From contig JADZDN010000160.1 of the NCBI GenBank assembly GCA_020851015.1, positions 1 through 9,173 on the forward strand: DNA of 9,173 bases, read 5' to 3'. Position numbers and translations under genes: made by a program. This DNA is from Alphaproteobacteria bacterium. Lineage in GTDB: Bacteria > Pseudomonadota > Alphaproteobacteria > JAEULC01. Numbering within the stretch: position 1 is the first letter of the stretch; the number at the start of each line of letters is the position of its first letter. Of the stretch, positions 1 to 9,173 are shown in pieces. The notes beneath the pieces were generated by a model, which was not told where the DNA came from, did no database searches, and saw nothing but the letters and a program-made list of their open reading frames with translations.

Positions 1-687
1 TACCTGCGCCGGCACACCGAGGTCCGCGACGTGCTGCTGTCGGGCGGCGACCCGCTGACCCTGGCCGACGAGAAGCTGGACTGGCTTCTGACGCGGCTGC
101 GCGCCATCCCGCATATCGAGTTCATCCGCATCGGCACCAAGGTGCCGATGGTCCTGCCGCAGCGGATCACCAGGGACCTGGTGAAGATGCTGCGCAAGCA
201 CCATCCGCTGTGGATGAGCATCCACGCGACCCATCCCGACGAGCTGACGCCCGAAACCAGGGAATCGACGGCGCGCCTGGCGGACGCCGGCATCCCGCTG
301 GGCAGCCAGACCGTGCTGCTGCGCGGCATCAACGATTCGGTGCCGACGATGAAGGCGCTGATGCACGGGCTGCTGCGCTGCCGGGTCAAGCCCTACTACC
401 TCTACCAGTCCGACCCGATCTCCGGCTCGTCGCATTTCCGCACCCCGGTGGCGAAGGGGCTGGAGATCATCCAGGGCCTGCGCGGCCACACCACGGGCTA
501 CGCCGTGCCGCATCTGGTGATCGACGCGCCGGGCGGCGGCGGCAAGATCCCGATCCTGCCGGACTACGTCGTCGGCCGCGAGGGCGAGGACCTGGTCCTG
601 CGCAACTTCGAGGGCGGCATCTATCGCTACGCCGATCCGGGCGGAACGCTGGGCGCGGAGAAGCGGCTGCCGCTGGCGGCCGAATAA
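1..687 (+). CDS. kamA: Lysine 2,3-aminomutase-type radical SAM/PLP enzyme (KamA family), 5'-truncated
   Basis: The frame is open from base 1 to TAA 685-687, giving the last 228 residues; the start and the radical SAM CxxxCxxC cluster lie before the window. The family moves the alpha-amino group of L-lysine to the beta carbon using SAM, a 4Fe-4S cluster and PLP. Visible family motifs are LLSGGDPL (residues 12-19), VLPQRIT, GSQTVLLRGIND, HFRTP and DAPGGGGK. Asp138 and Asp175 are 37 residues apart and Lys182 follows 7 later. This matches my memory of the lysine-binding Asp293/Asp330 and PLP Lys337 of the Clostridium subterminale enzyme. EpmB (the EF-P lysine mutase) lacks the DAPGGGGK segment, and glutamate 2,3-aminomutase is reported to have the Asp pair replaced, so lysine is the favoured substrate. 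The cysteine-rich C-terminal tail of the clostridial enzyme is absent. It is the first visible gene of the four-gene plus-strand group. Family is secure; exact substrate is inferred. Confidence 0.9.
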   Translation, partial: YLRRHTEVRDVLLSGGDPLTLADEKLDWLLTRLRAIPHIEFIRIGTKVPMVLPQRITRDLVKMLRKHHPLWMSIHATHPDELTPETRESTARLADAGIPLGSQTVLLRGINDSVPTMKALMHGLLRCRVKPYYLYQSDPISGSSHFRTPVAKGLEIIQGLRGHTTGYAVPHLVIDAPGGGGKIPILPDYVVGREGEDLVLRNFEGGIYRYADPGGTLGAEKRLPLAAE

Positions 688-710
688 GAACGACCAGCCT
701 GAACGGGGAC

Positions 711-716
711 AGGGAG
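711..716 (+). promoter_or_regulatory. Ribosome binding site AGGGAG for the first ATP-grasp gene
   Basis: AGGGAG lies 7 bases before ATG 724 but only 1 base before the alternative GTG 718. The spacing therefore decides for ATG 724. It sits in the 36-base gap after the aminomutase stop, where I see no promoter or terminator. Confidence 0.6.
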
Positions 717-723
717 CGTGCAC

Positions 724-1740
724 ATGCTGGTCGGGATCGCCTACGACCTGCGCGGCGACTATCTGGCGGAAGGCTATAGCGAGGAAGAGACCGCCGAGTT
801 CGACAGTCCGGCGACCATCCAGGCGCTGGACGACGCGATCGCGGCCCTCGGCCATCGCGCCCAGCGCATCGGCAATGTCCGGCGCATGGTCGAACGCCTG
901 GCCCGCGGCGAACGCTGGGACCTGGTGTTCAACATCACCGAGGGGCTGAACGGCATGGGCCGCGAGGCCCAGGTGCCGGCCATCCTGGACGCCTATGGCA
1001 TCGCCTACACCTTCTCGGACCCCGTGATCATGGGGCTGACCCTGCACAAGGGTCTGACCAAGCGGGTGGTACGGGATTGCGGCGTGCCGACGCCCGACTT
1101 CGCGGTGATCGAGGCCGAGGCCGACCTCGCGCGGGTCAGCCTGCCCTACCCGCTGTTCGCCAAGCCCGTCGCCGAGGGCACCGGCAAGGGCGTCACCCCG
1201 GCCTCGCGCATCGCCGACCGCCGGCAATTGCGCGCGGTATGCTGCGAGCTCCTGAAGCGCTTCGACCAGCCGGTGCTGGTCGAGACCTTCCTGCCGGGAC
1301 GCGAGTTCACGGTGGGCATCGTCGGCACCGGCGCGCGCGCCCAGGCCATCGGGGCGCTGGAAGTGATCCTGAAGGACAATGCCGAGCAGGGCGTCTACTC
1401 CTACGTCAACAAGGAGGAGTGCGAGGAGCGCGTCATCTACCGGCTGGTCGACGACGCGCTGGCGCGCGAGGCCAGCACGGTGGCGCTGGCGGCCTGGCGG
1501 GCGCTCGGCTGCCGCGACGCGGGGCGGATCGACCTGCGCGCCGACGCGGCCGGACGCGTCAACTTCATCGAGGTCAACCCGCTGGCCGGGCTGCACCCCT
1601 CGCATTCCGACCTGCCGATCCTCTGGCAGCAGGCCGGCGGCCAGTATGTCGACCTGATCCGCCGCATCGTCGAGTCGGCCAGCACGCGGATCGGCGCCGG
1701 CCGCATCCGCCACCCGGCGCCCCGCGCCGCCGCCGAATAG
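724..1740 (+). CDS. ATP-grasp ligase of the D-Ala-D-Ala ligase fold, first of a tandem pair
   Basis: The protein has 338 residues and is probably a cytosolic ATP-dependent carboxylate-amine ligase acting through an acyl-phosphate. The N-terminal domain carries FNITEGLNGMGRE (69-81) and SDPVIMGLTLHKGLTKR (98-114), then the VPTP turn typical of Ddl proteins. The ATP-grasp core has LFAKP (Lys147) and an unusual glycine loop EGTGKGV (151-157) where Ddl has GSS-type residues. VLVETFLPGREF (184-195) and GRID (Asp270) follow, with Glu283 and Asn285 as metal ligands. The Asp-to-Glu and Glu-to-Asn spacings (13 and 2) are those I recall for E. coli DdlB. The start is ATG 724, chosen for its ribosome binding site. 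The next gene starts 5 bases after the stop. Peptidoglycan D-Ala-D-Ala ligation is unlikely: there is no mur/fts context and it sits beside a homologue and an aminomutase. The true substrates cannot be read from sequence; a beta-amino acid is the contextual guess. Confidence 0.85.
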   Translation: MLVGIAYDLRGDYLAEGYSEEETAEFDSPATIQALDDAIAALGHRAQRIGNVRRMVERLARGERWDLVFNITEGLNGMGREAQVPAILDAYGIAYTFSDPVIMGLTLHKGLTKRVVRDCGVPTPDFAVIEAEADLARVSLPYPLFAKPVAEGTGKGVTPASRIADRRQLRAVCCELLKRFDQPVLVETFLPGREFTVGIVGTGARAQAIGALEVILKDNAEQGVYSYVNKEECEERVIYRLVDDALAREASTVALAAWRALGCRDAGRIDLRADAAGRVNFIEVNPLAGLHPSHSDLPILWQQAGGQYVDLIRRIVESASTRIGAGRIRHPAPRAAAE

Positions 1741-1745
1741 GGCCA

Positions 1746-2777
1746 ATGCCGCGCCGCAGGGCATCGCGGCCCGCGCCCGACACCGTCGCCGTGCTGCACG
1801 GCGCGGTGAGGCCCGGCGCGCCGACCGACGAGCAGGACACGCTGGTCCAGGTCGCCATCGTCGCCACGGCGCTGGAGCGGCTGGGCTGGCACGCCACGCC
1901 CGTGCCCGTGACGCTTGACCTTGCCGCCCTGGCCAGGCGGATCGAGGCGCTGAAGCCGGCCTTCGCCTTCAACCTGGTCGAGGCGCTGGGCGGCGTCGGC
2001 CGCTACATCCACCTGGCGCCCACGGTGCTGGACCAGATCGGCCTTGCCTATACCGGCTCGGACGCGACCGCGATCCTGCTGACTTCGCACAAGGTCCTGG
2101 CCAAGCGGATGCTGGCGGCGGCGGGGATGCCGACGCCCGCCTGGATCGACGAGCAGGGCGCGAGCGGCGCCGACCCCGCCGGGCGGTTCATCGTCAAGTC
2201 GGTCTGGGAGGACGCTTCGATCGGGCTGGAGCCCGGCTCGGTCGTCGAGGGGCGGGCGGCGGCGGAACGGCGCCTGGCCGAGATGGGCGCGCGGCACGGC
2301 GGCGCATGGTTTGCCGAGGCCTATGTCGAGGGCGGCGAATTCAACGTCGCGCTGCTGGACGGGCCCGGCGGGCCGGAGATTCTGCCGGTCGCGGAAATCC
2401 GCTTCGTCGACTTCCCGCCCGGCGCGCCGCGCATCCTCGACTACGCCTCGAAATGGGACCCGCACTCCTTCGCTTACACCCATACGCCGCGGAGCTTCGA
2501 TCTGGCACCGTCAGATGCCGGCCTGGTCGAAGAATTGCGCGGGCTTGCATTGCGCTGCTGGCGCCTGCTGGGCCTCGGCGGCTATGCGCGGGTCGATTTC
2601 CGCGTCGACCGGGCGGGCCGGCCCTACATTCTCGAGGTCAACGCCAATCCCTGCCTGTCGCCCGACGCCGGCTTCGCCGCCATGCTGGAGCAGGCAGGCA
2701 TCGGCTTCGACCAGGCGATCCAGCGGATCATCGCGCCTTGCGCGGCGCCGGCCGCGCTGAAGCGCCGTGCGGGCTAG
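1746..2777 (+). CDS. ATP-grasp ligase of the D-Ala-D-Ala ligase fold, second of a tandem pair
   Basis: The protein has 343 residues and is homologous to the preceding one. Shared blocks include FAFNLVEALGGVGR (73-86), AYTGSDATAILLTSHK (101-116) and GMPTP. The ATP-binding core shows FIVKSVWEDASIGLEPGS (148-165; Lys151 and an acidic Ser-Gly loop), WFAEAYVEGGEFN (188-200) and YARVDF (280-285). Asp284, Glu297 and Asn299 form the metal site with the same 13/2 spacing as its neighbour, so both copies look active. It differs in the phosphate loop and after the EVN motif (NANPCLSPDAGF here, against NPLAGLHPSHSDLP in the first), where Ddl enzymes bind the second substrate. The two ligases thus probably use different acceptors. 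ATG 1746 is the first start after the upstream stop, and its ribosome binding site is weak. The same frame runs open far upstream only because of high GC. The 3' end overlaps the acetyltransferase gene by 11 bases. Confidence 0.85.
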   Translation: MPRRRASRPAPDTVAVLHGAVRPGAPTDEQDTLVQVAIVATALERLGWHATPVPVTLDLAALARRIEALKPAFAFNLVEALGGVGRYIHLAPTVLDQIGLAYTGSDATAILLTSHKVLAKRMLAAAGMPTPAWIDEQGASGADPAGRFIVKSVWEDASIGLEPGSVVEGRAAAERRLAEMGARHGGAWFAEAYVEGGEFNVALLDGPGGPEILPVAEIRFVDFPPGAPRILDYASKWDPHSFAYTHTPRSFDLAPSDAGLVEELRGLALRCWRLLGLGGYARVDFRVDRAGRPYILEVNANPCLSPDAGFAAMLEQAGIGFDQAIQRIIAPCAAPAALKRRAG

Positions 2778-3276
2778 CGCCGTTCCGGCGCGCGCCTCGC
2801 CGCGCTTTCGCGACGCGCCCCGGGCGAGCGACGCCGGCGCGATCCGGCGGATCGTGGAATCCACCGGATTCTTCCGGCCGGACGAGGTCGCGGTCGCGGT
2901 CGAGCTGGTCGAGGAGCGCCTGGCGCGGGGAATCGCGGCGAGCGGCTATCATTTCGTGTTCGCCGACGATGGCGGCGACGCCATCGGCTATGCCTGCTTC
3001 GGCCCGATTCCCTGCAGCCTCGCGAGCTGGGACCTTTACTGGATCGCCGTCGAGAACGGCGCGCGCGGCCACGGCCTGGGCCGCGAATTGCTTCGCCGGG
3101 CCGAAGAAGCCGTGCGCGGCGCCGGCGGCACGGCGATCTACATCGAGACCTCGTCGAAGCCGCAATACGACGCGACCCGCGCCTTCTACCTGGCCTGCGG
3201 CTACGGGCTGGAGCATGTCTTCGCGGATTTCTACGCGCCGGGCGACGGCAAGGCGGTCTATTCGAAACGACTCTGA
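2767..3276 (+). CDS. GNAT family N-acetyltransferase
   Basis: The protein has 169 residues and transfers an acyl group, normally acetyl from CoA, to an amine. GNAT motif A is clear: strand LYWIAV (90-95), then the pyrophosphate-binding turn RGHGLG (100-105) and helix RELLRRAEEAV. Motif B follows with IYIETSSKPQYDATRAFYLACGY (124-146), where Tyr141 is the likely general acid. The N-terminal part FRDAPRASDAGAIRRIV (14-30) is the usual first strand and helix. The start is GTG 2767, overlapping the previous gene by 11 bases; the next possible start would remove the first helix. Lysine 2,3-aminomutase paired with a GNAT recalls AblA/AblB, which makes N-epsilon-acetyl-beta-lysine as a compatible solute. 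This protein is shorter than AblB as I remember it, and the two ligases in between are not part of that pathway. The acyl acceptor is unknown; it may be beta-lysine or a peptide containing it. Confidence 0.85.
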   Translation: MRASAVPARASPRFRDAPRASDAGAIRRIVESTGFFRPDEVAVAVELVEERLARGIAASGYHFVFADDGGDAIGYACFGPIPCSLASWDLYWIAVENGARGHGLGRELLRRAEEAVRGAGGTAIYIETSSKPQYDATRAFYLACGYGLEHVFADFYAPGDGKAVYSKRL

Positions 3277-3284
3277 GGCAGGCT

Positions 3285-3316
3285 TCCTTCGACGGGCTCA
3301 TCCTTCGACAGGCTCA
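3285..3316. repeat. 16-bp tandem direct repeat, one mismatch
   Basis: Two copies of TCCTTCGACRGGCTCA lie end to end (3285-3300 and 3301-3316) and differ only at the R position (G, then A). The second copy is most of the left arm of the inverted repeat that follows, so the first looks like a partial extra copy of the same element. The block starts 8 bases after the GNAT stop. Confidence 0.85.
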
Positions 3317-3365
3317 GGATGAGGATCGTTTGGTATTCGCCTCATCCTGAGCCTGTCGAAGGATG
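3299..3365. repeat. Perfect 26-bp inverted repeat with 15-base loop (REP-like palindrome)
   Basis: The left arm 3299-3324 is exactly the reverse complement of the right arm 3340-3365; the loop is 3325-3339. The core TTCGACAGGCTCAGGATGAG is a motif I recall as a dispersed palindrome in many alphaproteobacterial genomes; a genome search is needed to confirm copies here. It lies between convergent genes, where so stable a hairpin could stop transcription or block 3' exonucleases on both strands. There is no T-run on either side, so it is not a textbook intrinsic terminator. It also encodes the end of the lpxL-like protein. Confidence 0.9.
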
Positions 3366-4291
3366 GGGCTCGTGCTGCTGCCACCTTCATCCTTCGGCCA
3401 GCGGCGGTGCAGCCACAGCCAGTGTTCGGGTCTGGCGCGGATCCAATCTTCCATGCGCCGGTTGACCGCGGTCATCAAGGCCAGCACGTCGGCGTCGCGG
3501 TCGCCGGTTTTCGGCAGCGCCAGCGGCGGCTCGCAGATCACGCGGAACCGCGTGTCGCCCAGGCGCTCGACGTGCACCGGCACGACCGGGCATGCGAAGC
3601 GCAGGGCAAGCTGGGCGAGCGCGGGCGCGGTCATGGCGGGGCGGCCGAAGAACGGCACGGCGATGCCCTCGTTCATCTTCTGGTCGACCAGCATGATGAC
3701 GTGGCCGCCGGACTGCATGACCTGCAGCAGGCGCCGCGCGCCGCGCACGCCCTTGCGGATCAGTTCGGCGCCACTGACGCTCTGCAGCTTGCGGATGTAC
3801 TCGTCGAGCAGCAGGTTGTTGGCGTTGCGGTAGACGACGTTGACCGGCAGCCGGCGCATCCGCGCGGCGAGCGTCACCATCTCACAGCTCGCCAGATGGG
3901 CCGAGAAGATGATGCCGGGCTTACCGTCCTCGCGCAGGGCGTCGAGATGCTCGCCGCCGACGATCTCGACCCGGTTCGCGGCATCGTCGACGATGGTCTT
4001 CAGATGCGCGTATTCGCACACCGTGCGCGACAGGTCGTCCCACATCTCGGCGACGATGCGCTCGCGCTGGGCTTTGCCGAGGCCGGGAAAGGCGCGGTCG
4101 AGGTTGCGCCGGGCGATCGTGCTGGCGCCCATATGCGGCCCCAGGCGGCGCGCGATGGCGGCGATGCCGTTGGTCGCCGTGCGCATCGGCAGGGCGCGCA
4201 TCAGCTCCATCAGCCCGATCATGCCCCAGCCGCGGATCGGCCGCAGGACCGCGAGCCACCACCGCCCGATCGGCCCCCTAGGCGCGGCCAT
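3314..4291 (-). CDS. lpxL: LpxL/HtrB-type lipid A late acyltransferase
   Basis: The protein has 325 residues and belongs to the lysophospholipid acyltransferase superfamily; it adds a secondary acyl chain to Kdo-lipid A at the inner membrane. The catalytic HX4E motif is SAHLASCEM with His132 and Glu137. Other family marks are RRNLDRAFPG (61-70), DQKMNEGIAVPFFGRPA (203-219), and ARPEHWLWLHRRWP (286-299), the usual end of the family. From Pro309 the 17 last residues (PILRQAQDEANTKRSSS) come from the inverted repeat, and the TGA stop lies in its far arm, so this tail is an acquired extension. The start ATG 4291 overlaps the lpxK stop by 14 bases and has GGTGAG 8 bases upstream. The Met codons at residues 24 and 28 are possible shorter starts. 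Whether it is an LpxL, LpxM or LpxXL-type enzyme, and which chain it transfers, cannot be told from sequence. Confidence 0.88.
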   Translation of the reverse strand: MAAPRGPIGRWWLAVLRPIRGWGMIGLMELMRALPMRTATNGIAAIARRLGPHMGASTIARRNLDRAFPGLGKAQRERIVAEMWDDLSRTVCEYAHLKTIVDDAANRVEIVGGEHLDALREDGKPGIIFSAHLASCEMVTLAARMRRLPVNVVYRNANNLLLDEYIRKLQSVSGAELIRKGVRGARRLLQVMQSGGHVIMLVDQKMNEGIAVPFFGRPAMTAPALAQLALRFACPVVPVHVERLGDTRFRVICEPPLALPKTGDRDADVLALMTAVNRRMEDWIRARPEHWLWLHRRWPKDEGGSSTSPILRQAQDEANTKRSSS

Positions 4292-5270
4292 CGGCGGGTC
4301 TCACCAGCGCGCGGCCCAGGATGGCGCCGGCAGCCTGCTCGTCGTCCCATGCCAGCTCGACCGGCAGCACATGCACCATGTTGAGCGCGCCCGGCGGCAG
4401 GCGCACGGCGTCCTTGGCGGTTGTCACCAGCACCGCGTCGCGCGTGGCCGCGTGCTCGACCATGCCCATCACTTCCTCGGGCCGGTAGCGGTGATGGTCG
4501 GGAAAGTCGCGCGTCGCCACCACCAGCGCCCCCAGGTCGCGCAGCGTGCGGTAGAACTTCTCCGGCCGCCCGATGCCGGCGAAGGCGGCGACCCGCTCGC
4601 CGCGATAGCGCGCGCCGTCCGCGCCGGGCACCAGGCGCGCGCGCATCACCGGCACGCGACCGCCGAGCGCAGCCATCGCGCCGACGCTGTCCTCGCCCAC
4701 CAGCACCACCGCGTCGGCCCGCGCCAGCCCGTCGGCCACGCGCTCGCGCAGCGGGCCGGCGGGGATCACGCGCCCGTTGCCGAAACCCTGGCCGCCATCG
4801 ACCACCAGCAGCGACAGCGTCTTGACCAGGGACGGGTTCTGGAACCCGTCGTCCATCACGATGAGACCGGCGCCGGCCGCGACCGCCGCGCGCGCGCCGG
4901 CGGCACGGTCATGCGCGACCCAGGTCGGCCAGCGGGCGGCCAGCAGCAGGGGCTCGTCGCCGACCTCGGCCGCCGTGTCGCGTGCCGGCTCGACCCGGTG
5001 CGGCCCGGCGATCCTGCCGCCATAGCCGCGGCTGAGCAGGTGCACCGCCAGGCCCCGCGCCACGTACCAGCGCGCCGCGGCGAGCGCGACCGGCGTCTTG
5101 CCCGCCCCGCCCGCGACCAGGTTGCCGATGCAGACCACCGGTACGGGCGCCCGGTAGGGCCGCGCCAGGGCGCGCCGCAGCCGGGCGGCCGCCAGCCAAG
5201 CCATGCCCGCCGGCGCCAGCAGCCGCGCGACCGCGCTGTCCGACCGCTGCCAGAACTCAGGAGCGCGCAC
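4278..5270 (-). CDS. lpxK: Tetraacyldisaccharide 4'-kinase
   Basis: This enzyme phosphorylates the 4' position of the lipid A disaccharide with ATP at the cytosolic face of the inner membrane. Counted from GTG 5270 the protein has 330 residues, close to the usual ~330. Visible motifs are the Walker A/P-loop GNLVAGGAGKTP (49-60), LSRGYGG (79-85), DEPLLLA (105-111), VMDDGFQNPSL (138-148), NGRVIPAGPLRE (165-176), FAGIGRPEKFY (230-240), DFPDHHRY (255-262) and TTAKDAVRL (283-291). GTG 5270 is preferred because it gives the family-like N-terminus (V/M)RAPEFW and overlaps the waaA stop by 14 bases, the same overlap seen between lpxK and lpxL. ATG 5303 would add 11 residues; longer upstream starts add low-complexity sequence that shadows waaA. 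Function is secure, start less so. Confidence 0.93.
   Translation of the reverse strand: MRAPEFWQRSDSAVARLLAPAGMAWLAAARLRRALARPYRAPVPVVCIGNLVAGGAGKTPVALAAARWYVARGLAVHLLSRGYGGRIAGPHRVEPARDTAAEVGDEPLLLAARWPTWVAHDRAAGARAAVAAGAGLIVMDDGFQNPSLVKTLSLLVVDGGQGFGNGRVIPAGPLRERVADGLARADAVVLVGEDSVGAMAALGGRVPVMRARLVPGADGARYRGERVAAFAGIGRPEKFYRTLRDLGALVVATRDFPDHHRYRPEEVMGMVEHAATRDAVLVTTAKDAVRLPPGALNMVHVLPVELAWDDEQAAGAILGRALVRPADGRA
4300..4305 (-). promoter_or_regulatory. Probable ribosome binding site GGTGAG for the lpxL-like gene
   Basis: On the minus strand GGTGAG lies 8 bases before ATG 4291, inside the end of lpxK. It supports this start over the internal Met codons and fits coupled translation. Confidence 0.4.
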
Positions 5271-6603
5271 GAAACCCGGTGTCGTGGCCGATGTTGTGTC
5301 CATCGGCGCCGTTGGGCGCGGCGCCATTGGCGTGCCGGCGCTGGGCCGCGTCGAGCCAGGGCTTGATCTCGCGCAGCACGGCGTCGAGCACGCCCGCCTC
5401 GGCCTCGGCCACGGCCCGCCCGGCCCGCGCGAGCGCGCCGCGCCGCGCCCGGTCGGCCAGCAGGGCCGCAACGCCGGCGGCCAGCCCGGCCTCGTCAGCG
5501 ACCTCGGTCAACGCGCCGCCGGCCCGCAATCGGTCGACCATCTCGGCGAAATTGTGCATGCGCGGCCCCAGCACGACGGCACAGCCGAGCTGCGCGGGTT
5601 CGAGCGGGTTGTGCCCGCCCTCGTGCAGCAGCGATTTGCCGACAAAGACCACCTCGGCCAGGCGATAGAAGAGCCCCAGCTCGCCCATCGTGTCGGCCAG
5701 GTAGATGTCGGCCCCCTCGATCGCATCGCCGGCGCTGCGCCGCGCCACGCGATGCCCTTCGCGCGCCAGCTCGGCCGCGATCGCCTCGCCGCGATCGGCA
5801 TGACGCGGCACGATGATGGTCAGCAGTCCGGGCTGTGCCGGCGCCATCGCGCGATGCACCCGCGCGGCGAGCGCCTCCTCGCCGGGATGGGTGCTGGCGG
5901 CCAGCCAGCGCGGGCGGTTACCGATCGCGCGGCGCAGGCGCTCGAGCGCCTTCTCGTCGACCGGCAGCGGCGCGGCGGCGAATTTCAGGTTGCCGACCGA
6001 CAGCGCCTTCGGCGCGCCGAGGGCGGACAGGCGGACGGTCTGCTCCTCGTCCTGGCCGAGGCAGAGCGCGAAATGGCCGAGCAGCGGCCGGATCAGGAAG
6101 GGCACGCGCTTCCAGCGCAGGAACGATGCTTCGGACATCCGCCCGTTGAGCAGCACCAGCGGTATCCGCGCGTCCGCCACGCCCTGGATCATGTTCGGCC
6201 ACAGCTCGGACTCCAGCCACAGCGCCAGGTCGGGCCGCCAATGATCGAGGAACCGCTGGATCCACCCGGCGTGGTCCACCGGCACATACTGATGGAACGC
6301 CCGGGGCGGCAGCCGGCTCGCCAGCAGCCGCGCCGAGGTCACCGTGCCGGTCGTGACCAGCACGCTGAGATCGGGCCGCTCGGCCAGCACCCGCTCGATA
6401 AAGGCAAGGGCGGAAAGCGATTCCCCGACCGACGCGCCGTGCACCCAGGCAAGCGCCCCCGCGGGCCGCGGCCGCGACGGCTCGCCGAAGCGCTCCGCCA
6501 GCCGCTCGGCGTCCTCCTTGCCAGCGGCGCGGCGCCGCTCGAGGTAGAGGCGGATCAGCGGTTCGGCCGCGGCGGTCAGGCCGCGATAGAACGACAGGGT
6601 CAC
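5257..6603 (-). CDS. waaA: 3-deoxy-D-manno-octulosonic acid (Kdo) transferase
   Basis: WaaA (KdtA) is a GT-B glycosyltransferase that adds Kdo from CMP-Kdo to lipid IVA at the inner membrane. The 448 residues carry a membrane-proximal N-terminus and HGASVGES (55-62), with Glu61 as the probable catalytic base. Further blocks are TTGTVTSA (84-91), LESELWPN (130-137), NGRMSEAS (153-160), VGNLKF (203-208), AASTHPGEE (235-243), PRHADRGE (266-273), and DTMGELGLFYRLAEVVFVGKS (304-324) followed by GGHNPLEPA (329-337), which binds the nucleotide. The start is GTG 6603, whose GTGA overlaps the TGA of the upstream COG2121 gene by 4 bases, a classic coupling arrangement. After about residue 418 there is a Gly/Asn/His-rich tail of some 30 residues, so it runs longer than E. 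coli WaaA (425). Whether it adds one or two Kdo units cannot be seen. Confidence 0.93.
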   Translation of the reverse strand: MTLSFYRGLTAAAEPLIRLYLERRRAAGKEDAERLAERFGEPSRPRPAGALAWVHGASVGESLSALAFIERVLAERPDLSVLVTTGTVTSARLLASRLPPRAFHQYVPVDHAGWIQRFLDHWRPDLALWLESELWPNMIQGVADARIPLVLLNGRMSEASFLRWKRVPFLIRPLLGHFALCLGQDEEQTVRLSALGAPKALSVGNLKFAAAPLPVDEKALERLRRAIGNRPRWLAASTHPGEEALAARVHRAMAPAQPGLLTIIVPRHADRGEAIAAELAREGHRVARRSAGDAIEGADIYLADTMGELGLFYRLAEVVFVGKSLLHEGGHNPLEPAQLGCAVVLGPRMHNFAEMVDRLRAGGALTEVADEAGLAAGVAALLADRARRGALARAGRAVAEAEAGVLDAVLREIKPWLDAAQRRHANGAAPNGADGHNIGHDTGFRARS

Positions 6604-7379
6604 GCAGCTCCCCCCGCCGCCCTGGCCGCGTCGCGGCCTGCGAACTCGGCCAGCGGCGGCCCCGGCTCGATCGCGTCATGGCCGCAGCGGCGGTCGGCCG
6701 CGGCCGAAAGCTGGGTCAGCGCGTCTTCCACCTGCCGGCGCACCCGGTCGATCGCCTGGTCGTCCCCGTCGGGCGGCACCGCGATCGGCTCGCCCCACAG
6801 GAACACCCCGCGCGCGAACGGCTTTGGCACCAAGAGCCGGTCCCACGATCCCAGGACGCGGCGGCGCGACACCGAATAGCTGGCGGGAATGATCGGCACT
6901 CGGGCCAGGCGCGCGAGCATGGCCACGCCCGGCTTCGCGCGCATGCGCGGGCCGGGCGGCGAATCCGGCGTGATGCCGATCCAGCTGCCGTGGCGCACCG
7001 CGCGCACCAGGGCCCGCATGGCCGACATGGTGTTGCGGTTGTCGGAGCCCGCGATCGTGTCGATGCCGAAATGGCTGACCGCGCGCGCGATCAGCCTTCC
7101 ATCGTGATGCGCCGAGATCAGCATGTGGATCGGCGCGCCCCCGGCTTGGCGCCGCGCGCCCTTTGGCGGGTTCCAGGCGAACGGCATCATCAGCAGCCGC
7201 CCATGCCAGAAGCACAGGATGAAGGGCTTGCCTTCGCGCCACATCCGGCGGGCCGCGGCATCGCCTTCGATCGACCAGCGGCCGGTCCAGAATACCAGCC
7301 GCAGATACCAGGCGCCCAGCCAGCAGGCCAGGCGTTGCGCGGTCTCGCCCTTCGACCACCGCTTCAGCCGGTTGACCAT
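6600..7379 (-). CDS. COG2121/DUF374 acyltransferase-like protein of the lipid A operon
   Basis: The protein has 259 residues and resembles the lysophospholipid acyltransferase family, DUF374/COG2121 branch. Marks are FILCFWHGRLLMMPF (53-67, with the catalytic-type His59), LISAHHDGRLIARAVSHFGI (87-106), IAGSDNRNT (109-117), GITPDSPPGPRMRAKPGV (135-152) and PIIPASYSVS (162-171). The family usually shows a DGPRGP-like block where this has DSPPGP. A hydrophobic stretch near residues 15-32 may anchor it to the membrane. It starts at ATG 7379, 4 bases after the msbA stop, and ends inside the waaA start codon. The position between msbA and waaA implies a role in lipid A or phospholipid metabolism, but to my knowledge no reaction is firmly established for this branch. 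The last ~30 residues are Ala-rich and look unstructured. Confidence 0.85.
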   Translation of the reverse strand: MVNRLKRWSKGETAQRLACWLGAWYLRLVFWTGRWSIEGDAAARRMWREGKPFILCFWHGRLLMMPFAWNPPKGARRQAGGAPIHMLISAHHDGRLIARAVSHFGIDTIAGSDNRNTMSAMRALVRAVRHGSWIGITPDSPPGPRMRAKPGVAMLARLARVPIIPASYSVSRRRVLGSWDRLLVPKPFARGVFLWGEPIAVPPDGDDQAIDRVRRQVEDALTQLSAAADRRCGHDAIEPGPPLAEFAGRDAARAAGGAA

Positions 7380-7383
7380 CGGC

Positions 7384-9173
7384 CTAGCCCAGCACCACCG
7401 CCCGCAGCGCGGGCTGCGGTTCGTCGGCGGATTGCAGTGCATAGAGCCGGGCATAGGCCCCCCCGCGCGCCATCAGCTCGGCGTGGGTGCCGCTTTCCAG
7501 GATCCGGCCGTTGGCCAGGTAGTAGATCAGGTCGGCGCCGACCACGGTCGCCAGGCGATGCGCGACGACCAGCGTGGTGCGCCGATGCATCAGGGTCGCC
7601 ATCGCGTCGCGCACCTGGCGCTCGGATTCGCCGTCAAGCGCCGAGGTCGCCTCGTCGAGCAGCAGGATGGGCGCGTTCTTCAGCAGGGCGCGGGCGATCA
7701 TGATGCGCTGGCGCTGGCCGCCCGACAGCTTGACGCCGTGCTCGCCGACCAGCGTGGCGTATCCTTCCGGCAGGCCGGCGATGAAGTCGTGCACGCCCGC
7801 CAGCTTGGCCGCGCGCTCGATCTCGGCGTCGGTCGCGTCGGGCTTGCCGTACTTGATGTTGCGCGCGACCGTATCGTCGAACAGGCTGACTTCCTGGCTG
7901 ACCAGCGCGATGTTGGCGCGCAGCGTCGCCAGCTTGATCGCGCGCACGTCGTGGCCGCCGATGGTGATGCGGCCGGACTCCACGTCGTAGAACCGCGGGA
8001 TCAGGTTCAGAACCGTCGACTTGCCCGAGCCGGACGGGCCGACCAGCGCCACCGTCTTGCCGGCCGGCACTTCCAGGCTCACCCCGTCCAGCGCCGCGCG
8101 GTCGCCGCGATAGGAGAAATGCACGTTCTGGAACCTGATCGACGCGCCGTGCGCATCGAGGTCGATCGAATCCGGCCCGTCGACGATGCGCGGCGCGCTG
8201 TCCAGCACGGCGAACACGCGGGTCGCGGCGGCAAGCCCTTCCTGCAGGCTCGAGTTCAGCGCCGCCAGCTTCTTCATCGGCTCGTAGGCGAGCAGCAGCG
8301 CGGTGATGAACGAGAAGAAGGCGCCCGCCGTGCGGTTGCCCAGGATCACCTGGTTGCCGCCATAGGCGATCACCGCGACGATGGCGACGCCGCCCAGCGT
8401 CTCCATGATCGGATGCGCGATCGAGCGGGTGCGCGCCGCGCGCTGCACCAGGCCGAACAGGGATTCCACCGCCTCGCGCGCGCGGCCGGTCTCGTAGCCT
8501 TCCATCCCGTAGGCCTTGACGTGCCGCGCGCCCTGGAAGGTCTGGCCGAACAAGGTGGTCAGGTCGGCGAGCTGGACCTGGGTGCGGGTGGCGACCTTGC
8601 GCATCCGCCGGCCGATATTGGCGATCGGCAGCACCGCGATCGGGAACACGATGAAGGCGACCGTGGCGAGCTGCCAGTCCTGGCGGAACATGACGACGAC
8701 CAGCAGGATCAGCGTCAACGCGTCCTTGCCGATGCTGGTGAGCGTCATCGACACCGCGCCGCGCAGCATGCCCACGTCGTTGACGAGGCGGGAAACCAGC
8801 GTGCCCGTGGGCGTGTCGTTGAACGTCGCCATGTCGGCCCGGATCAGGCGCCCGTAGAGGTCGACCTGCAGGTCGGAGACGATGCGCTGGCCGACATAGT
8901 TCATCAGCACGGCCTGGCCATAGGTCGCCATGCCCTTCAGGAAGAACACCACCAGAACGGCAACCGCCACCCAGGCCAGCATCGCGCGGTCGCGGTCGAC
9001 GAACACGCCGTCGATGATCGGCTCCATCAGCTTGGCCAGCGCGGCGGTGGCCATGGCGGCGACGATCATGCACAGCCCGGCCAGCGCCAGCCGCAGCCAG
9101 TGCGGCCGCACATGGTCGACCAGCAGGCGGCGCATCAGCACGCGCGTGGACTGGTCGAGGCCGATCTTGCCGA
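7384..9173 (-). CDS. msbA: MsbA-type lipid A ABC exporter, N-terminus outside the window
   Basis: This is a half-transporter with fused membrane and ATPase domains, of the type that flips lipid A across the inner membrane as a homodimer. Numbered from GTG 9141, hydrophobic segments lie near 16-38, 55-75, 140-152, 158-175, 250-266 and 273-287. The ATPase domain shows Walker A GPSGSGKST (368-376), Q-loop Gln416, signature LSGGQ (472-476), Walker B ILLLDE (492-497) and switch His528, so it looks catalytically complete. The frame stays open from GTG 9141 to the window edge, reading GKIGLDQSTRV just before it, so the true start is probably outside. Placement ahead of waaA, lpxK and lpxL supports lipid A export over drug export, although sequence alone cannot separate MsbA from related multidrug exporters. 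It is the first visible gene of the operon; any promoter lies beyond the window. Confidence 0.9.
   Translation of the reverse strand, partial: GKIGLDQSTRVLMRRLLVDHVRPHWLRLALAGLCMIVAAMATAALAKLMEPIIDGVFVDRDRAMLAWVAVAVLVVFFLKGMATYGQAVLMNYVGQRIVSDLQVDLYGRLIRADMATFNDTPTGTLVSRLVNDVGMLRGAVSMTLTSIGKDALTLILLVVVMFRQDWQLATVAFIVFPIAVLPIANIGRRMRKVATRTQVQLADLTTLFGQTFQGARHVKAYGMEGYETGRAREAVESLFGLVQRAARTRSIAHPIMETLGGVAIVAVIAYGGNQVILGNRTAGAFFSFITALLLAYEPMKKLAALNSSLQEGLAAATRVFAVLDSAPRIVDGPDSIDLDAHGASIRFQNVHFSYRGDRAALDGVSLEVPAGKTVALVGPSGSGKSTVLNLIPRFYDVESGRITIGGHDVRAIKLATLRANIALVSQEVSLFDDTVARNIKYGKPDATDAEIERAAKLAGVHDFIAGLPEGYATLVGEHGVKLSGGQRQRIMIARALLKNAPILLLDEATSALDGESERQVRDAMATLMHRRTTLVVAHRLATVVGADLIYYLANGRILESGTHAELMARGGAYARLYALQSADEPQPALRAVVLG

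Follow-up and report, generated by a model that had tools for sequence, protein, structure and literature searches.

A 9,173-nucleotide stretch of DNA (positions 1 to 9,173 of contig JADZDN010000160.1, assembly GCA_020851015.1; Alphaproteobacteria bacterium), referred to in its full length as the window, carries four head-to-tail genes on its plus strand. They encode a KamA-family radical SAM aminomutase, two ATP-grasp amide ligases with the fold of D-alanine-D-alanine ligase (Ddl), which we call AG1 and AG2, and an N-acetyltransferase of the GNAT family (Table 1). Pfam and NCBIfam give concordant family calls for all four. The window edge cuts the 5′ part of the KamA gene, the first half of which falls outside. 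KamA and AG1 are separated by 36 nucleotides (nt; 688–723) and AG1 and AG2 by 5 nt (1741–1745), while AG2 and GNAT overlap by 11 nt (2767–2777). The two gaps and the overlap agree exactly with those of an earlier reading of the same DNA (the original prediction), which proposed an undescribed pathway: KamA makes beta-lysine, the ligases build it into a di- or tripeptide or conjugate, and the GNAT caps the product, which might be a compatible solute, metallophore or signalling peptide. Here, we present the evidence that the four genes act together, and weigh what they may make.

Table 1. Positions of the features in the window and the basis for each assignment
Feature	Position	Strand	Basis and remarks
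KamA-family radical SAM aminomutase, C-terminal part	1..687	+	PF12544 (LAM_C) 80.5 bits; open at the left edge of the window
AG1, Ddl-fold ATP-grasp amide ligase	724..1740	+	ATG at 724, alternative GTG at 718; Dala_Dala_lig_C 100 bits
AG2, second Ddl-fold ATP-grasp amide ligase	1746..2777	+	Dala_Dala_lig_C 65.2 bits
GNAT N-acetyltransferase, cluster family	2767..3276	+	PF00583 (Acetyltransf_1) 50.1 bits; PDB relative 2r7h
Inverted repeat between convergent operons	3285..3365	none	Repeat search; 26-nt perfect arms 3299-3324 / 3340-3365; 16-nt arm 3285-3300
Lipid A operon: LpxL-like acyltransferase, LpxK, KdtA/WaaA, DUF374 protein, MsbA	3314-9141	-	Pfam and NCBIfam

The same genes recur together in many other bacteria. 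A genome scan with the AG1 alignment alone, against one genome per species, gave at least 586 pattern matches, at least 572 of which encode relatives of AG1. The locus counts that follow rest on the best 80 of these at least 572 relatives, and some of the contigs stop within the cluster. At these 80 loci, chosen by AG1 alone, KamA is found in 79, AG2 in 70, GNAT in 53, and all four in 52. KamA lies upstream of AG1, on the same strand and within 800 nt, in 77 of the 78 loci with a KamA scoring >100 bits. AG1 and AG2 are no more than 800 nt apart in 70/80 loci (AG1 also matches the AG2 model in this distance count; the strict AG2 count is likewise 70/80), and AG2 and GNAT lie within 2.6 kb of one another in 53/53. 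AG1 is the most conserved member of the system, with about 58–70% identity between the window protein and its relatives beyond the nearest kin and in other phyla. The record titles span some 12 phyla, including Alphaproteobacteria, deltaproteobacterial groups, planctomycetes, Bacteroidetes, Acidobacteria, WOR-3, Aminicenantes, Nitrospinota, Sumerlaeota, Fibrobacteres, Neomarinimicrobiota and others; most records are metagenome-assembled genomes, such that isolated odd taxon assignments may reflect binning errors.

Among 16 genomes reached via the loci (loci and genomes bear our L and G numbers), a cluster-type KamA is present in all 16, in two pieces in G011. AG2 lies away from AG1, elsewhere in the genome, in G004, G010 and G016; KamA is elsewhere in G012 and on another contig in the genome of L063. 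In 99 genomes of Desulfobacterota, AG1 is found in 23, KamA (E≤1e-60) in 62, and an AG2-like gene in 34. By Fisher tests, which ignore kinship among the genomes, KamA accompanies AG1 (23/23 genomes with AG1 vs 39/76 without, p=3.7e-6) and AG2 (31/34 vs 31/65, p=1.9e-5), and AG2 accompanies AG1 (23/23 vs 11/76, p=1.5e-14). From the coordinates, KamA is on the same strand as AG1 and within ~4 kb of it in 21 of the 23, the exceptions being G029 and G021, which has a KamA piece at the end of a different contig. In Planctomycetota, KamA of any kind occurs in 5/6 genomes with AG1 vs 18/73 others (p=0.007). The arrangement seen at the 80 loci is far beyond chance.

Several of the genes are also fused to one another. 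AG1 is fused to AG2 at L018, and AG2 to GNAT at L040 and L063; indeed, 12 of 120 AG2 homologues among the matches listed carry a GNAT domain. A third combination joins the cluster GNAT to an accessory GNAT-deacetylase protein (GNAT-HDAC-GNAT; L050, L077, L085), described below. Given the adjacency, the fusions and the genome co-occurrence, it is near certain that KamA, AG1, AG2 and GNAT form one functional unit, and the original prediction, which took them for one, stands on this point; the genes are anything but rarely adjacent in other genomes, with KamA at nearly all of the 80 AG1 loci. KamA-AG1 pairs without a nearby AG2 were also seen (L010, L022, L032, L056, L061 and others). A shorter, two-enzyme KamA-AG1 version may exist, compare the WOR-3 genomes G007 and G011, which have no canonical AG2.

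The system appears to be chromosomal. Searches with AG1 yielded a single distant record in a plasmid collection (limit 1e-30; 34% identity), another in a phage collection (limit 1e-20; 29% identity), and 54 pattern matches in viral contigs, none of which was confirmed; a mobile-element origin was rejected on these results. The plasmid record is a distant ATP-grasp relative of AG1 on a Sinorhizobium medicae plasmid predicted to be mobilizable (NZ_CP140903.1, 271730-272506).

Many AG1 and AG2 proteins are named "D-alanine-D-alanine ligase" in public annotation, and Ddl is the closest fold of both (Foldseek for AG1, VIA-align for AG1 and AG2). The 50 fold matches listed are all Ddl-type ligases, which says nothing against other ligase families. 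Several lines of evidence set the two proteins apart from Ddl. First, both window proteins miss the Ddl cut-off (TIGR01205, 245.65 bits), AG1 scoring 117.3 and AG2 81.2 bits; across 21 cluster genomes, the sub-cut-off places matched by the Ddl model, AG1 and AG2 included, peak at 154.3 bits. Second, a separate Ddl above the cut-off is present in 17 of these 21 genomes. Third, AG1 and AG2 are separate in the tree from each other and from the Ddl of cluster genomes; branch lengths indicate that AG2 is the more variable of the two.

Fourth, the substrate residues differ. The ATP/Mg residues K144, K215, R255, D257, E270 and N272 are kept in AG1 and AG2 (one AG2 is gapped at two of them). The residues that we take to contact the substrates of Ddl are His63, Ser150, Tyr216 and Ser281-Leu282, in E. 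coli DdlB numbering. Twelve of 12 Ddl controls have His63, Ser150, Tyr216 and Ser281, and position 282 is Leu in six, Met in four, Ile in one and Asp in one. The His63 position is Glu in 85/85 AG1 and 71/71 AG2. The Tyr216 position is Trp in 71/71 AG2 and is Tyr in 0/85 AG1. At the Leu282 position, 85/85 AG1 carry Asp and 70/71 AG2 carry Gly. The Ser150 position is changed in both, Gly276 additionally in AG2, and Ser281 is retained in 85/85 AG1. Scores, residues, tree position and the separate Ddl led us to reject an ordinary Ddl, and AG1 and AG2 are, as far as computation reaches, very likely something else; the outcome that the original prediction named as fatal to it, two ordinary D-alanine-D-alanine ligases, did not materialize in the scores, residues or tree. 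The public names of AG1 and AG2 would suit the idea that these are chance neighbors or mis-scored ordinary genes, namely a plain Ddl, an unrelated aminomutase and an acetyltransferase. We consider this highly improbable: adjacency is conserved, fusions occur in three combinations, the genes co-occur across genomes, and the tree sets both ligases apart from the Ddl of cluster genomes.

The aminomutase is less easily assigned a substrate. The partial KamA of the window has TIGR03820, the AblA model, as its best NCBIfam match (325.7 bits), and its sole PDB relative is 2a5h, a lysine 2,3-aminomutase, which provides the residue numbers used here. The radical SAM motif CxxxCxxC (C125/C129/C132) and R134 are kept in 74/74 cluster KamA that cover them (the window and three other sequences lack this part). 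K337, D293 and D330 are kept in 78/78, the window included; we take K337 to be the lysine that binds pyridoxal phosphate, and D293 and D330 to hold the epsilon-amine of lysine in 2a5h. The view that KamA is of the lysine 2,3-aminomutase type is therefore upheld by the lysine-type binding residues, and lysine is its presumed substrate. Cys268 is found in 0/78 cluster KamA, the window KamA having Ser. Only 1/78 has a C-terminal tail of ≥40 residues past position 365, and none has a tail with more than two Cys. Presumably, the zinc site of lysine 2,3-aminomutase consists of Cys268 and cysteines of a long C-terminal segment. Of 20 non-cluster KamA, six have Cys268 together with 51–62-residue tails holding 2–4 Cys, and 14 have no Cys268, so its loss is not peculiar to the cluster. 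The presumed zinc pattern CxCxxC occurs in 0/77 cluster rows and also in 0/20 control KamA, and hence does not discriminate. Cluster KamA have ~70 extra N-terminal residues (median 71, with starts taken from a simple open reading frame reader).

A pathway of the same type could do without beta-lysine, if the substrate of KamA were a different diamino acid or an intermediate further along and the ligases built some other beta-amino-acid amide. We think this unlikely, but it is the alternative that we take most seriously. Beside the substrate site, R135 is replaced by Ser in 69/74 canonical KamA and L294 by Pro in 75/78, so another diamino substrate is possible; the lack of Cys268 points the same way. 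Five full-length cluster KamA from five loci, scoring 464.1–493.7 bits, miss the AblA equivalog cut-off (TIGR03820, 525.4 bits). Furthermore, in a tree of 31 of the 87 cluster KamA and 20 others, the 22 canonical cluster KamA form a clade of their own with 100/100 support. By contrast, both of the Asp residues that presumably hold the epsilon-amine are invariant, and 5/5 of the full-length proteins score higher against the AblA model than against the models for glutamate and arginine aminomutases. Variant clusters use KamA of other lineages. The cluster label requires seven changes on the tree, at least six of them forced by supported branches; the labels are impure, since in the genome that L092 comes from KamA does not adjoin the ligases, and some of the "others" are KamA of genomes that have AG1 or an AG2-like gene at another place (e.g., G029, G032, G035, G073, G109). 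Judged by adjacency, at least three non-canonical KamA lineages pair with ligases (L081-L083; L084/L085/L089/L090; L086), and these retain both Asp residues. Repeated pairing of different KamA lineages with the ligases is expected if the ligases need a beta-amino product.

The cluster GNAT has as its closest solved relative 2r7h (140.9 bits), titled "Putative D-alanine N-acetyltransferase" and, we believe, from Desulfovibrio. The original prediction likened the KamA-GNAT pair to AblA/AblB, which make N-epsilon-acetyl-beta-lysine. A GNAT is indeed part of the cluster, but at only 53/80 loci, and it is not AblB by the NCBI model. The AblB model (TIGR03827, cut-off 205.1 bits) has no match at E≤1e-3 in the GNAT of the window or of L003. 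None of the 21 cluster genomes has a match above the cut-off, and three have matches of 20–23 bits, one of them within the AG2-GNAT fusion of G012; among 14 controls, Methanosarcina included, five have matches, three above the cut-off. We therefore rejected AblB as the identity of the cluster GNAT, and the known route to acetyl-beta-lysine is probably not used in the cluster genomes.

In a subset of loci, the system includes a further protein. A protein of ~580 amino acids that begins with a GNAT-like domain and ends with an HDAC-type domain (PF00850, 249.2 bits) is encoded at 20/80 loci (some only as pieces at contig ends), either between AG2 and GNAT or 3′ of GNAT. Among solved structures, it is closest to acetylpolyamine amidohydrolases (6phr, 242.5 bits). 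Nine more members are 60–66% identical to the first and keep the deacetylase motifs: H394, H395, D427 and Y557 (His pair, metal-ligand motif, catalytic Tyr region) are invariant in 10/10 aligned proteins. We assume that these residues are the catalytic His pair, a metal ligand and the catalytic Tyr of the deacetylase. In the Desulfobacterota, six genomes encode the protein, and AG1 or AG2 is present in 6/6 of these vs 28/93 others (p=0.0012). Fusion of a GNAT to an acetylpolyamine-amidohydrolase/HDAC domain means that acetylation may serve as a protecting group or switch, besides a cap. This second acetyl-handling protein does not figure in the original prediction, which on the whole is partly supported.

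Taken together, these observations make it somewhat probable, in our judgment, that the cluster encodes a dedicated pathway to a small beta-lysine-containing peptide or amide, with acetyl handling. First, KamA would convert L-lysine to beta-lysine by moving an amino group from the alpha to the beta carbon, as family and residues suggest. Second, AG1 would use ATP to turn a carboxylate into an acyl phosphate and couple it to the amine of a partner, one of its substrates presumably being a cationic diamino acid (beta-lysine or lysine). Third, AG2 may add another amide bond, using an acceptor that is larger than, and different from, that of AG1. Fourth, the GNAT would acetylate an amine of the substrate or product. 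Where the GNAT-amidohydrolase protein is present, the acetyl group may be both added and removed, as a protecting group during ligation or as a reversible switch.

Besides the KamA substitutions already described, several findings count against such a pathway. Three of the 16 genomes (G007, G011, G015) have no canonical AG2 and five have no GNAT at E≤1e-15 (present in 11/16), so the full four-gene line is not universal. G088 retains only a 74-amino-acid piece of AG1, located between KamA and an AG2-GNAT fusion. Among 79 Planctomycetota, AG1 is found in six, and KamA adjoins it in only four. The association of the GNAT-deacetylase protein with AG1 alone is weak (4/6 vs 19/93, p=0.025). Pocket arguments for the ligases rest on alignment with Ddl residue numbers and roles that we presume to be correct. 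Asp at the Leu282 position is not confined to AG1, since it is also found in 1/12 Ddl, that of genome G007. In 83/85 AG1, Ala stands opposite Glu15 of Ddl and the next position holds an invariant Glu, which makes this first site ambiguous. The G007 protein (L131) scores above the Ddl cut-off; its genome has KamA-AG1 but no canonical AG2.

Neighboring genes offer limited guidance. There were 117 candidate operon neighbors, of which 64 were given to Pfam jointly and 10 neighbors of L082, L084 and L089 separately; families are the commonest 25 of 106 for the 64. The most frequent are PhoU_div (five), CxxCxxCC (four), PHO4 (three) and Response_reg (three). No family exceeds five members, and a conserved accessory gene outside the core was rejected accordingly. 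Local synteny seems to account for the PhoU_div/PHO4 genes, mostly in Syntrophales, and for the CxxCxxCC protein. A CxxCxxCC (YkgJ-like) gene lies between KamA and AG1 at L006, L030, L050 and L073. At L082, an AG1-like gene and KamA flank genes for a sensor kinase, closest to the AtoS model, and for a sigma-54 response regulator, closest to AtoC, both scoring under the cut-off, and L081 and L083 have similar-sized frames in this place; the pair may possibly be a dedicated regulator of these variant clusters. In two Desulfobacterota loci, Amidohydro_3 and C26 gamma-glutamyl-hydrolase-like genes lie downstream of GNAT (L089:8245-10559 and L090:1598-3927); these hydrolases possibly recycle or turn over an amide product.

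The neighbors bear on where the product acts. Apart from CorA at two clusters, the sole transporter family to recur among the 64 neighbors is PHO4, a Pit-type phosphate transporter (3/64), and no exporter or TonB receptor is among the families found in at least two of them. The lack of a recurring exporter makes a cytoplasmic product likelier and counts against a secreted metallophore or signal; most likely, the product remains in the cytoplasm. A secreted beta-lysine-based peptide, acting as a metallophore, signal or antibiotic, has attractions: natural products often involve ATP-grasp ligases and beta-amino acids, AG2 varies more than AG1, as it might for a diversifying product, and CorA-type metal transporters are encoded near two clusters (L035, L084). 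We nevertheless judge it improbable, since in addition to the missing exporter, the ~58–70% identity of AG1 across phyla is unlike that of a diversifying secondary metabolite, and near-absence from plasmid, phage and viral collections is as for core chromosomal metabolism.

The likeliest role for the product, which we propose only tentatively, is that of a compatible solute. The genes for a cyclic di-AMP (c-di-AMP) cyclase, CorA and PsiE near some clusters provide a weak hint of ion or osmotic homeostasis. At L084, where CorA and PsiE are also neighbors, the cyclase gene is 37 nt from AG2; at L007 it is 725 nt 3′ of GNAT. The L084 cyclase (9442-11166, minus strand) is an odd combination of a CdaA-type domain, YbbR and a C-terminal OmpA domain. 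Three results disfavor a solute: a c-di-AMP cyclase gene is near the cluster in only 2/100 loci, there is no conserved osmotic regulator among the cluster neighbors, and Rfam has no match at E≤0.1 upstream of 20 KamA genes (29,270 nt). Riboswitches were rejected as a clue to role on these 20 upstream regions, and the window has no Rfam riboswitch match at the gathering level. A bolder version, doubtful at present, would have the cluster make a widespread class of intracellular solutes, beta-lysine oligo-amides with a charge set by reversible acetylation, in about a dozen phyla. KamA, AG1 and AG2 would be the makers and the GNAT and GNAT-deacetylase fusion the switch, and the class would have been overlooked because both ligases carry a D-alanine-D-alanine ligase annotation.

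The remaining features of the window are a lipid A operon, which is convergent with the KamA-AG1-AG2-GNAT genes, ordinary and outside the finding, and an inverted repeat between the two. The repeat is a probable transcription end for both operons, or else a repetitive palindromic element; its 21-base core pattern has no exact match in 155 fetched loci. In L001, the closest relative, the cluster likewise has an MsbA-like ABC transporter frame, identified by eye, in its vicinity. That the cluster faces lipid A genes could suggest that the ligases build a cell-envelope component or modify a protein or lipid, in keeping with their Ddl-like folds, with Mur-ligase domains in 2/64 neighbors, and with four cluster genomes, all planctomycete-named records, that have no separate Ddl above the cut-off, a finding that also counts against the proposed beta-lysine pathway. 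This explanation strikes us as quite improbable. The MsbA-like frame near L001 reflects local synteny, with different neighbors elsewhere; several Ddl substrate residues are replaced and most cluster genomes keep a separate Ddl; and acetylation plus deacetylation of a small amine suits a wall precursor poorly.

The cluster has partial counterparts among known systems. Like AblA/AblB, it places a KamA-family enzyme beside a GNAT, with a likely beta-lysine intermediate and an acetylated product; unlike AblA/AblB, it adds two ATP-grasp ligases, its GNAT has no AblB match at E≤1e-3 in the proteins scanned, and its KamA has no Cys268 and does not reach the AblA cut-off. The N-acetylglutaminylglutamine amide (NAGGN) pathway makes an acetyl-capped peptide solute by means of a GNAT domain and an ATP-grasp domain, which some members carry in one protein. 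The cluster shares this combination and its occasional fusion, but differs in having KamA and a Ddl-type ligase, and the model we believe to be of NAGGN type (TIGR03103) is absent from the 13 NCBIfam matches of the L040 AG2-GNAT fusion, all of which are Ddl or acetyltransferase models. As in the beta-lysylation of elongation factor P by EpmA/EpmB, a KamA-family enzyme would supply beta-lysine for an amide bond. The partners differ, being ATP-grasp ligases in the cluster vs EpmA, an aminoacyl-tRNA-synthetase paralogue, and the five full-length cluster KamA, at 237.1–259.4 bits, miss the EpmB cut-off (TIGR03821, 369.3 bits). Ddl itself differs from AG1 and AG2 at His63, Ser150, Tyr216 and Leu282 (and Gly276 for AG2), and is separate in the tree. 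The accessory protein resembles acetylpolyamine amidohydrolases (class II HDAC-like) in its C-terminal domain, and is unlike them in its N-terminal GNAT-like domain, seen in ten aligned members, and its linkage to KamA/ligase genes. To judge from sequence, then, the cluster resembles a longer AblA/AblB or NAGGN synthesis, and fails the defining tests for AblA, AblB, Ddl and EpmB.

We found no description of a KamA-AG1-AG2-GNAT cluster in open PubMed Central papers, the literature covered. A 2009 amidoligase survey in Mol BioSyst by Iyer and colleagues may already list the KamA/ligase gene neighborhood. One study of Na+ riboswitches treats ablA as an osmolyte gene (PMC9337991), and another proposes a salt-tolerance role for ablA/ablB of Pelobacter (PMC3543383). 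A third raises the idea of acetyl blocking of lysine N6 ahead of dipeptide ligation (PMC2922099), which fits acetylation as a protecting group.

If a beta-lysine pathway is confirmed, many "Ddl" labels that could mislead analyses of cell walls and antibiotic targets would be correctable, and at least 572 AG1 loci would carry a misannotated pathway whose molecule has apparently not yet been sought. Free beta-lysine is used in fermentation, modification of elongation factor P, acetyl-beta-lysine and antibiotics, and amide-linked small molecules would join this list. The prediction would be directly testable in planctomycetes and anaerobes, and a small molecule common to many unrelated bacterial groups may so far have escaped discovery.

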